From: Candidatus Poribacteria bacterium
GTDB lineage: Bacteria > Abyssobacteria > SURF-5
Direction: 5' to 3'
Assembly (NCBI GenBank): GCA_016215705.1
Contig: JACRIR010000209.1
Location: 1 to 64,000, forward strand
DNA: 64,000 bases
Within the stretch, counting starts at the first letter, position 1. Each line of letters opens with the position of its first letter. The translations under genes and the position numbers were made by a program. Of this stretch, positions 21,229-46,837 are shown piece after piece. The notes under the pieces were generated by a model. That model searched no databases. It was not told where the DNA came from and was given only the letters and a program-made list of their open reading frames with translations.

Positions 21229-21256
21229 GTCATTCTGAGCGAAGCGAAGAATCTCT
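21229..21256 (+). repeat. CATTCTGAGCGAAGCGAAGAATCTC repeat, single copy
   Basis: The bases from GTCATTCTGAGC to GAAGAATCTC equal the terminal inverted repeat of the GIY-YIG element at 25755-26116, here as a lone copy upstream of engB. Confidence 0.7.
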
Positions 21257-23600: not shown

Positions 23601-25655
23601 TCATGGATTTCCGGCGGGCACATCGTAAATAAAAATGGAATAGCCGAGAACTTTCCTGGGTTTCAGCTTCTTGAGCCAGTCGTGGCAGTGTGGGTTGGCG
23701 AGATAGAGATTCTGGAGATAGGTGGCGCTTACAGCCCAGACGCCGGCAGAAGGCTCGCAACCATTGAGGTCGGCGTTGCTAAGGCCATAATACTCGAGCA
23801 CGCCCCGGGGACCGAAATACTTTATCTTCACGTCCCGGATTCTGTTTTCCTGCAAGTAGTTCATGAGATCGTTCAGATTCTGTCCCCAGTCGAGATTTGA
23901 ATCCACAAGATATTTGTATCCTTTACTCGGCCCGCCGATCATCTCATTGAAGTATGCAAGATAGTGTGGGTATATCCACGCCGCTGAGCCCGCGTACCAA
24001 ACACACAGAATCGCGAGCGCTCGTTTCCATCGTTTGGATTCAAAGGAGGCAACCTTCCCGGCAAAAATGCAAAGGAGTGGAATCAATGGAAGGATGTATC
24101 GGATGCCTATGTTTATCCGAGATGGCAGGGAGAAGAAACCGATCATGATCAGGATTGAAAACAAGAGGAAACGTTCGTCAAATGTCCCCTTCCCCCCTTT
24201 GCCAAAGGGGGACGAAATGGAGTTCTCCTTTACAGAAGGATGAATAGTCGACTCCCTCTTTGCAGAGGGGGGAACAGTCGAGTCGCTATTTACAAAGCAA
24301 CGAATGGCCGGGCTGCTCTTTACAGAGGGAGGAATAGTGGAGCCCTGCTCTGCAGAAGAGGGGACAACCTTGTCTTGTGGGCAGCCTTCTTGACTCCCCT
24401 TATGCAAAGGGGGGGAGGGGGGATTTGGAGAACAGGCTCTCTTTCCTCCTTTTTCAAGAGAGAATAATTTGCTGAGTGGTCGGCTCGATTTCAGGCTCGC
24501 CCCGGCAGCCGCAACCAGGCATATGATAAACGGAATCGGAGTCTTGATGAGAAAAGCCACCCAGTAGAAGTACCACCAGCCCGTTCGCGAGATTTCTCCA
24601 AACAGGAAATTGTCTTTCCACCCTTTTGCTGCCGCGAGCTGTGTATAAATTCCAAGGATGTATGAATATGCGGGAATGCGAATGCCACGCAAGGCCAGCG
24701 CATCGACTGCCTGCCAAAAAGGTTTTTCGGCGACCAGCCTCTCTGCCTGCGGTTTCAGCCATTGCGGCATGAAGGGGGTTCCAAACTGGAAGCCGTAACC
24801 AGCCCAGACAACACAGGAAGCTATAAGTAAGATCAGCAGGAGGCATAGTAAATCCCCCCTCCCCCCCTTTGCAAAGGGGGGTAATGAAAACCTGATTCGG
24901 AGGGGGATTGCCTTTTCCACTCTCTTCAAAGGTGTCCCTGTTTCCTCTCCTCGCAAAGGTTCCCCTGTTTCTCCCCTTTGCAAAGGGGGGGAGGGGGGAT
25001 TTACCAGCCGGAACAAGATAACTTCCAACAACAGAATCGGAATCAGAATGAGTCCCGTGAACTTCGACAAAAGCGCGAGACCCAACGCCATGCCCGTAAG
25101 AACCATTCGCACGGCTGAAGGCGCTTGGAGGTATTTGTGAAATGAGTACAGCGCCAGCGTCATGGTGAACGCAAGCAGCATATCAGGCGTGGCAAGCTTA
25201 CAGTGTGCGAGGATCGCCGGGCAAAGGGAATATAAAAACAGGGAAACCAGCGCTGCGCCGGAACCATAAATCTCTCTTCCCCAACGATACACCAGGAGCC
25301 CCAGCAGCGCCGAGAGAAAGACGAACGGAATGCGCGTAAGGAACATCATCAGGCGGGGAGATTGGCCGGATTCGAATATGAGCGATGGGCCTATATAGCG
25401 GCGGTAGACGTATTCCTTGTCCTCGAATCTGTCGGGATCGAGTTTCAACGGCAGGAGAAGAAGGCTGTTGACGTAATAGGGAAGCGGCGGATGCAATTGG
25501 AGCGCCACAATCTCCCAGTTCCTGGTTTCCAGCAACTGCCGGCCAATACCGATATAACTGGGCTCATCCCACGTGAGCGACGCGCGCCGCATGCTGCCCA
25601 CCGCAAGCGCGAGGTGAATTGCCAGTAGCGCGGCAACTGCGAGGCGGGTTCTCAT
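23601..25655 (-). CDS. GT39-type (ArnT/PMT-like) membrane glycosyltransferase with repeat-encoded insertions
   Basis: The 684-residue protein begins MRTRLAVAALLAIHLALAV, followed by the GT-C acidic motif TWDEPSY in the first periplasmic loop, about ten further membrane segments (FVFLSALLGLLVYRWGREIYG, ILRFAQ-free core, FILIMIGFFSLPSR) and a C-terminal soluble part with NLDWGQNLNDLMNYL. Such enzymes transfer a sugar from a polyprenyl carrier to protein or lipid. Two hydrophilic stretches, NPPSPPLQRGE to FAKGGRGD and NPPSPPLHKGS to FGKGGKGT, are encoded by repeat arrays at 24850-25002 and 24187-24428, both in loops and both in frame. I prefer ATG 25655; the frame upstream to 25700 is itself repeat DNA. 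The target is unknown. Confidence 0.8.
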   Translation of the reverse strand: MRTRLAVAALLAIHLALAVGSMRRASLTWDEPSYIGIGRQLLETRNWEIVALQLHPPLPYYVNSLLLLPLKLDPDRFEDKEYVYRRYIGPSLIFESGQSPRLMMFLTRIPFVFLSALLGLLVYRWGREIYGSGAALVSLFLYSLCPAILAHCKLATPDMLLAFTMTLALYSFHKYLQAPSAVRMVLTGMALGLALLSKFTGLILIPILLLEVILFRLVNPPSPPLQRGETGEPLRGEETGTPLKRVEKAIPLRIRFSLPPFAKGGRGDLLCLLLILLIASCVVWAGYGFQFGTPFMPQWLKPQAERLVAEKPFWQAVDALALRGIRIPAYSYILGIYTQLAAAKGWKDNFLFGEISRTGWWYFYWVAFLIKTPIPFIICLVAAAGASLKSSRPLSKLFSLEKGGKRACSPNPPSPPLHKGSQEGCPQDKVVPSSAEQGSTIPPSVKSSPAIRCFVNSDSTVPPSAKRESTIHPSVKENSISSPFGKGGKGTFDERFLLFSILIMIGFFSLPSRINIGIRYILPLIPLLCIFAGKVASFESKRWKRALAILCVWYAGSAAWIYPHYLAYFNEMIGGPSKGYKYLVDSNLDWGQNLNDLMNYLQENRIRDVKIKYFGPRGVLEYYGLSNADLNGCEPSAGVWAVSATYLQNLYLANPHCHDWLKKLKPRKVLGYSIFIYDVPAGNP
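24187..24428. repeat. In-frame array of six 30-bp units bounded by GC-rich palindromes
   Basis: From 24211 to 24390 the sequence repeats with an exact 30-base period, each unit holding a CTCTTTRCAGAGG-like mini-hairpin. On the coding strand this gives ten-residue units such as STIPPSVKSS, STVPPSAKRE and STIHPSVKEN. The array is bounded by CCCCCCTTTGCCAAAGGGGG (24191-24210) and by TGCAAAGGGGGGGAGGGG (to 24428). Confidence 0.85.
24850..25002. repeat. In-frame array of 27-bp units bounded by GC-rich palindromes
   Basis: The stretch starts with AAATCCCCCCTCCCCCCC and ends with AGGGGGGGAGGGGGGATTT, a terminal inverted repeat. Between them the coding strand has nine-residue units PLQRGETGE, PLRGEETGT and PLKRVEKAI. 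It is the second insertion of this type in the same gene. Confidence 0.8.
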
Positions 25656-25673
25656 GTCATTCCGGGACCATTT

Positions 25674-25784
25674 GGTGTCATTCTGAGTCCTCGGTGTCAC
25701 ATTCTGAGCCCTTTGGTGTCATTCTAGCCCTCGGCGTCACATTCTGAGCCCTTCGGTGTCATTCTGAGCGAAGCGAAGAATCTC
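25674..25784 (+). repeat. Tandem GGTGTCATTCTGAG units next to the GIY-YIG element
   Basis: Five units begin at 25674, 25693, 25715, 25733 and 25755, with lengths 19, 22, 18 and 22 bases, so the higher-order period is 40-41 bases. The last unit is the full 30-bp terminal repeat of the GIY-YIG element. The array occupies the upstream region of the GT39-type gene. Confidence 0.8.
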
Positions 25785-26116
25785 CTTTCTCACACCAGCC
25801 ATTGCTTAGGTCTTCCCATCGGGGGTTGACCGCTTCGATCAAGGCCATCTTCTTTGCTCGCAGCCAGCCTTTGATTTGTTTTTCACGCGCGATAGCTGCC
25901 TGAACGTCATCGGTTTCTTCGAAGAATACGAGGCGGGTGATATTGTATTTCTTTGTAAAACCGGGCACGAGTCTTTCCTTGTGCTCGTTCACTCTTCTAA
26001 CCAAATCACCAGTTACGCCCGTGTACAGACACCGTGATTTGTTGGTCATTATGTAAACATAATAACGCTTCATTGGAGTGCAAGAAGAGATTCTTCGCTT
26101 CGCTCAGAATGACACC
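25755..26116 (-). mobile_element. GIY-YIG mini-element with perfect 30-bp terminal inverted repeats
   Basis: The left end 25755-25784 (GGTGTCATTCTGAGCG through GAAGAATCTC) and the right end 26087-26116 are exact reverse complements over 30 bases. The 362-bp segment between and including them contains only the GIY-YIG gene, whose TGA stop codon lies inside the left repeat. Tandem fragments of the repeat adjoin both ends. This structure suggests a self-contained mobile or homing unit; no target-site duplication is clear. Confidence 0.65.
25759..26073 (-). CDS. Small GIY-YIG nuclease domain protein
   Basis: The 104-residue protein is a single GIY-YIG domain: YYVYIMTN, then LYTGVTGDLVRRVNEH with the conserved Tyr and Arg, then FVFFEE-like core strand LVFFEETDDVQAAIAREKQIKGW, whose Glu and Lys fit the catalytic helix. 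The last residues, EKGDSSLRSE, are encoded by the terminal inverted repeat of the element. Members nick or cut DNA in repair or homing; stand-alone copies of this size are common and poorly characterised. Start ATG 26073 follows GGAG at spacing eight bases or fewer. Confidence 0.85.
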   Translation of the reverse strand: MKRYYVYIMTNKSRCLYTGVTGDLVRRVNEHKERLVPGFTKKYNITRLVFFEETDDVQAAIAREKQIKGWLRAKKMALIEAVNPRWEDLSNGWCEKGDSSLRSE

Positions 26117-26191
26117 AGAGGGTTCAGAATGATATTTTGCGCTCAGAATGGCACATTACGCCCGCGATAACATAGATTTGTGTCTTGTTGC

Positions 26192-46751: not shown

Positions 46752-46837
46752 GTCATTCTGAGCAAAGCGAAGAATCTCGGGGGAAATCGTTCAATATGCT
46801 CCTCAAAGAGGATTCTTCGCTTCGCTCAGGATGGCGG
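46752..46837. repeat. Inverted pair of CATTCTGAGC repeats, gene-less (MITE-like)
   Basis: GTCATTCTGAGCAAAGCG at the left and TTCGCTTCGCTCAGGATGGC at the right are imperfect inverted copies of the terminal repeat of the GIY-YIG element, with only about 30 bases between. It looks like a deletion derivative of that element. Confidence 0.7.

Follow-up and report, generated by a model that had tools for sequence, protein, structure and literature searches.

In the window (the whole 64-kb stretch of DNA analysed here), a small GIY-YIG gene lies between two matched hairpin repeats, and this pairing of gene and repeat is conserved among related genes from many phyla. We interpret the pair as a two-part REP system, in which the one-domain GIY-YIG nuclease would be the dedicated partner of the tagged hairpin repeats, and its class the missing partner of the orphan CGTC/TGTC REP superfamily (probability about 0.6). 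Among bacterial repeats this class is very common, and the GIY-YIG gene is the best candidate to encode the enzyme that it lacks.

A GIY-YIG gene between tagged hairpins

The left repeat (25755–25784, + strand; GGTGTCATTCTGAGCGAAGCGAAGAATCTC) is the exact reverse complement of the right repeat (26087–26116, − strand) over 30 bp, and this inverted repeat can be extended imperfectly to 58 nt at 86% identity. Between them lies the predicted nuclease gene (25759–26073, − strand; 104 aa), which was identified as an open reading frame (ORF) with a match to PF01541 and whose TGA stop codon falls inside the left repeat. The 10-mer CATTCTGAGC occurs seven times in the window against 0.28 expected, a count reached in none of 100 shuffles. 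A solo hairpin repeat, a near-copy of the 27-mer GTCATTCTGAGCGAAGCGAAGAATCTC with its hairpin intact, is located at 21229–21255 (+ strand), and a head-to-head hairpin pair without a gene is located at 46752–46837, with diverged arms. The sequence-only reading had described a perfect 30-bp inverted repeat around the gene, a stop codon within one end, a lone end at 21229 and the gene-less inverted pair; these observations are confirmed, and the repeat family proves larger than that reading supposed. Adjoining the unit is a long membrane-protein ORF (23601–25700, − strand), in which the in-frame peptides NPPSPPLQRG and SPFGKGGKG look like insertions of another palindromic repeat family.

When further copies were searched for, as that reading had advised, 210 places within three mismatches of the 27-mer were found in the 5.47-Mb genome (270 contigs), compared with none for the reversed control, and the gene was present in a single copy. 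This layout of one gene and many repeats is like that of RAYT genes and REPs. Neighbouring hairpins in this genome formed seven pairs with tags outward, one with tags inward and one in tandem; the corresponding numbers at 80 loci with related genes were 51, 41, and 44. On the tag side of both hairpins of the unit there are outward arrays of half-hairpins with about 20 bp per unit, one at 25656–25754 (+ strand), with a divergence that grows with distance, and the other at 26117–26155 (− strand). In a survey of 29 hairpins of the window genome, 7 had a copy of the half-hairpin GTCATTCTGAG 18–22 bp away on the tag side, as did 11 of 162 hairpins at other loci. Such copies often form tandem arrays that include 7–11 bp of local flank, with a period of 18–22 bp, and the opposite side gave only six GTCATTCTGAG matches, all at a spacing of 55 bp. 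Half-hairpin arrays confined to the tag side also occur at L014, L018, L023, L110, L138, and L180, including other phyla. It is a speculation that these polar arrays are a footprint of dispersal, left by repeated nicks about 20 bp apart and subsequent fill-in.

The 104-aa protein consists of a single GIY-YIG domain (PF01541, E 9e-15, above the curated cut-off), which is the only Pfam domain in the unit; a transposase gene is absent from the full-length unit. Tyr7, Tyr17, Arg27, His31, Glu64, and Asn83 are invariant among 53 relatives. With the domain match and the conserved catalytic Tyr, Arg, Glu, and Asn, the protein belongs to the GIY-YIG superfamily and its nuclease activity is predicted. 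The AlphaFold model (mean pLDDT 86) resembles UPF0213 proteins, SLX1, I-TevI, and the UvrC N-domain in structure comparison, the best matches being UPF0213 BH0048 (Z 7.8) and the structure-selective nucleases SLX1/HIGLE (Z ~7), with I-TevI at Z 5.9; as these scores are modest, they back the fold only. A phage origin of the gene is unlikely, with just two weak phage matches.

The end of the unit is a hairpin rather than a plain terminal inverted repeat. Repeats near the 80 related genes have the consensus TGTC-ATTCT-GA-GC-GNA-GC-GA-AGAAT-CTC, and the window repeat is accordingly laid out as a 5-bp outer stem, a GA/GA mismatch, a 2-bp inner stem, a 3-nt GNA loop, and a CTC tail. In 110 hairpins with an 11-nt interior, the GA/GA mismatch hardly varies at any of its four positions, the inner stem exchanges G-C and A-T as whole pairs, and the middle loop base is free (A 50, G 21, C 21, T 18) between a flanking G (97) and A (101). 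At sites chosen by tag and interior pattern only, the 5-nt arms pair at 92% of positions, whereas exchanging partners at random between sites gives no more than 74%; such shuffling keeps the relatedness among sites, and the arm pairing is supporting rather than absolute evidence. The base preceding GTC was T in 160 and C in 8 of 180 gene-side hairpins, which agrees with an unpaired CGTC tag or its TGTC/CCTC variants as known from REPs. The arms are mostly ATTCT, ATCCT, ATTCC, and others, so that the stem generally opens with AT, and some begin with AC.

The GNA motif accounts for 75 of 87 triloops and GNNA for 10 of 14 tetraloops, only one of those being GNRA. GNA and GNNA loops closed by G-C pairs form exceptionally stable DNA mini-hairpins, with d(GCGAAGC) melting at 78 °C (PMC4686876). 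A stable mini-hairpin with a GNA cap may point to recognition of the repeat as single-stranded DNA. The predicted DNA folding energy of the window hairpin was no better than that of shuffled sequences (z ~0.2), from an energy table that may not cover GNA caps, and the hairpin is argued here from covariation and the published stability of GNA caps.

Conservation and matching of gene and repeat

For the main comparison set, we used 80 related genes from many phyla with their flanks. GTC-tagged hairpins numbered 151 within 150 bp of these genes and 89 in 334 kb of further flank, and control tags gave a median of 7 near matches against the 151 for GTC; GAG, which ranks second, largely reflects these same hairpins seen from the tail end. 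Hairpins with tags outward bracketed 35 of the 80 related genes and 2 of 168 neighbouring ORFs (Fisher p 5e-18), and none of the 57 other ORFs shorter than 150 aa. The sequence-only reading had named two outcomes that would speak against it, relatives lacking flanking repeats and repeats at the same rate around unrelated genes, and neither occurred. At least one correctly oriented hairpin was present at 58 of the 80 genes, while the detector used here found none at the other 22. The density of hairpins was 5.5 per kb beside the gene and 0.85 per kb in the remaining intergenic DNA of these loci.

Weaker-matching GIY-YIG relatives are accompanied by other repeats, namely C2 (TGTCATTCCCGC..GCGGGAATCCA), C3 ([C/T]GTCATTGCGAG..GAAGCAATCCA), and C4 (TGTCACCCTGAGCYTGTCGAAGGGTG), whose hairpins share the plan of the window repeat (C1). 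Neisseria (dRS3-like), Aeromonas, Rhizobium, Shinella, and Sphingobium records contain palindromes of the same kind beside their GIY-YIG genes. Hairpins are mostly absent beside remote GIY-YIG matches that score under about 50 bits. At L212–L215, a divergent GIY-YIG clade lies beside CACCCTGAGCYTGTCGAAGGGTG hairpins, which differ in their tail and represent an additional repeat type.

Gene and repeats also occur together at the level of whole genomes. Among 60 genomes, at least three C1–C3 repeats were found in 12 of 13 with a strong gene match and in 7 of 47 without such a match (p 4e-7, relatedness ignored). In a second sample, C1 repeats were present in all nine genomes with a match above 104 bits and in 23 of 68 others (p 2e-4, relatedness again ignored). 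Genes were present without C1–C3 repeats in G054, and three repeat-rich genomes had no detected gene: G002 (138 C3), G033 (21 C1), and G042 (16 C3). In such genomes the gene may have been lost or missed in drafts, or it may not be needed. G002 belongs to the same family as the window genome, and its C3 repeats often form head-to-head pairs of two different loop types. The window genome itself (G000) also carries 37 C2 (dRS3-type) and 6 C3 repeats, and a cognate GIY-YIG gene for these was not found there.

In these sequence comparisons, the repeat type tracks the clade of the predicted nuclease. When the five repeat types were placed on a tree of 130 proteins, six changes were required (minimum 4), compared with a shuffled mean of 26.1, and none of 200 shuffles was as low; the tree has few columns and many unresolved forks, with C4 and the cores of C2 and C3 on starred branches. 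The C1 type occurs in records named Chloroflexi, Deltaproteobacteria, Cyanobacteria, Planctomycetota, and Nitrospirae, and further in Acidobacteria, Zixibacteria, Ignavibacteria, Clostridia, and other named records. Because C1 alone spans many phyla, host effects do not explain the match between repeat and nuclease. Moreover, three genomes carry two gene types, each gene beside its cognate repeat: G001 (C1 on contig C84, C2 on C33 and C98), G022 (C2 on C71, C3 on C62), and G056 (C2 on C108, C1 on C237).

Site turnover and possible routes of dispersal

The repeats and units come and go at orthologous sites. Within one genus, an intergenic site that is occupied by the unit in G095 is empty in both G100 and G101. 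In G007, which has its gene at another place, this site contains a single solo hairpin, and in G091 it has the gene together with hairpins. Many copies of the gene are present in several genomes (G068 and G069); in the latter (L241, G069:C1:634200-636700), three hairpin-gene-hairpin units are arranged in tandem with 562-bp spacing, and a 926-bp stretch is identical between adjacent copies. In a Planktothrix pair, an intergenic spot is shared, the gene is present in one and absent from the other, and the number of hairpin pairs differs; the neighbouring sequence differs too. On a Planktothrix agardhii plasmid (L180), the unit is flanked on one side by an MmeI-type restriction gene and on the other by the drmA gene of a DISARM system, and the same spot in another strain (L189) has a different number of hairpin pairs and no gene. 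The plasmid comparisons yielded no clean empty site at strain level, and a clean junction was not found in the Rhizobium and Sinorhizobium comparisons. No target-site duplication was visible in the one occupied/empty comparison, in which the flanks had diverged.

These results divide the view, held by the sequence-only reading, that the unit is an autonomous element with terminal inverted repeats and non-autonomous derivatives. Gene and ends are indeed a recurring unit, and the differences at orthologous sites, including the empty sites which that reading had advised looking for, and the tandem triplication of the whole unit fit mobility. A classical transposon with 30-bp terminal inverted repeats and gene-less derivatives is not supported, as the ends are self-complementary, tagged REP-type hairpins that outnumber the gene about 200 to 1 and occur alone, head-to-head, or in arrays, and target-site duplication is not evident at the sites compared. 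The unit has the appearance of a REP system partnered by a GIY-YIG protein rather than of an insertion sequence.

We propose that the repeat, when single-stranded or extruded at a replication fork or as a cruciform, would fold into a hairpin with a GNA cap, tandem G·A mismatches, and an unpaired GTC foot. By analogy with RAYTs and GTAG REPs, the nuclease may recognise the shape of this hairpin, binding it and nicking beside it. Hairpins, and more rarely hairpin-gene-hairpin units, would then be copied to new sites, probably via host repair or replication, since we know of no strand-transfer activity among GIY-YIG enzymes and the nuclease alone therefore has no known step of this kind. Bracketing, stem covariation, the matching of clades with repeat types, the copy-number asymmetry, and site turnover are observed, whereas binding, cleavage, the position of the nick, and dispersal or mobilisation by the nuclease are what we infer. 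Counting against the proposal are the lack of a known strand-transfer activity, the repeat-rich genomes in which the gene was not detected, the genes without C1–C3 repeats in G054, the 22 related genes at which no correctly oriented hairpin was detected, and the unremarkable folding energy of the window hairpin. The broader idea, of a new class of mobile DNA in which a GIY-YIG nuclease, with no transposase or recombinase involved, spreads hairpins of single-stranded DNA and at times the gene encoding it in many phyla, and which accounts for the CGTC/TGTC REPs including dRS3, is more tentative and falls somewhat short of even odds.

The main rival, which we consider unlikely, is a homing-type parasite of REPs: the nuclease would cut gene-less hairpins or head-to-head pairs, the gene would be copied in by recombination, and something else would spread the repeats. 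The position of the gene, with a hairpin on either side, does resemble an insertion into a head-to-head pair, the place taken by the unit in G095 has a solo hairpin in G007, the gene is present in many copies in several genomes, and the clade-by-clade matching would be expected here as well. Some genomes carry repeats without the gene, and it is G002 and G033, with their many repeats and no detectable gene, that keep this explanation alive. However, the window genome has one gene for about 200 repeats, no other dispersal enzyme common to all these phyla is known, and the lack of a hairpin at the orthologous site in G100 and G101 leaves a pre-existing target unsupported.

It is improbable that the unit is cargo of a classical small transposon, moved through its terminal inverted repeats by a transposase encoded elsewhere, with the scattered repeats as MITE-like derivatives. 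The perfect terminal repeats, the gene-less pairs, and the presence and absence at an orthologous site would suit such an element, but its ends are hairpins with their own covarying stem, solo copies are the majority, no target-site duplication was seen in the one occupied/empty comparison, and the prediction of repeat type by nuclease clade in unrelated hosts would be left unexplained. Still less probable is that the repeats are moved by RAYT-type (Y1) transposases encoded in this genome, with the GIY-YIG gene as a bystander. The genome does contain three Y1 transposase genes, but the CATTCTGAG repeat is absent from the examined flanks of all three, the tag is GTC and not GTAG, and a published survey did not find CGTC repeats flanking tyrosine transposases (PMC3733652). 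Coincidence, by which small genes and repeats both accumulate in intergenic DNA, where they do lie at most loci, is rejected as it is contradicted by the control tags, the bracketing and its absence from other short ORFs, the hairpin density, and the co-diversification seen on the tree.

Relation to known systems

The window protein is like UPF0213 and SLX1-like nucleases in having one small GIY-YIG domain, whereas SLX1 has an additional domain as well as a protein partner, and remote matches of this kind mostly lack the flanking hairpins. With GIY-YIG homing endonucleases such as I-TevI it shares the fold of the catalytic domain and possibly gene mobility. Unlike them, the window gene is free-standing, without an intron, intein, or separate DNA-binding domain, and sits between intergenic hairpin repeats. 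An insertion sequence or the parent of a MITE would be expected to have a transposase gene in its full-length unit, and here there is none.

CGTC-tagged REPs, which include Neisseria dRS3 and Rickettsia RPE-4 and RPE-6, have an 8–9 bp stem, a 4–5 nt loop, and a CCA tail, and mostly form head-to-head pairs; the 2013 paper that defined them (Di Nocera, De Gregorio and Rocco 2013; PMC3733652) concluded that a transposase of their own is apparently missing. The window repeat shares with them the CGTC/TGTC tag, a stem opening with AT, high copy number, and the occurrence of some head-to-head pairs, but its stem, loop, and tail are different and it belongs to none of the four CGTC families of that paper. 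The C2 repeats beside GIY-YIG genes have the stem, loop, and tail of CGTC-tagged REPs and belong to that class. No dedicated enzyme was reported for those REPs (PMC3733652), whereas the repeats described here bracket a GIY-YIG gene. In open-access PMC text, we found no paper that connects GIY-YIG genes to such repeats, and searching with the repeat sequence returned primers and unrelated sequences only. CGTC-tagged REPs are widespread in bacteria. The question of the missing transposase raised by their defining paper becomes directly testable with this gene family, whose members are bracketed by the repeats, correspond to them in each clade across phyla, and are of a size that suits simple biochemistry.

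In organisation, the unit resembles the REP/RAYT system (REPtron, REPIN), which also has one gene bracketed by matched repeats, hundreds of short hairpins, and inverted pairs, and in which enzyme and repeat vary together as they do here. The tag is GTAG in that system and GTC here, and the RAYT enzyme is a Y1/HUH tyrosine transposase, to which the GIY-YIG nuclease is unrelated. If the nuclease moves the repeats, this would explain how many intergenic palindromes of environmental genomes arose, and REP dispersal would have a second type of enzyme, unrelated to RAYTs.
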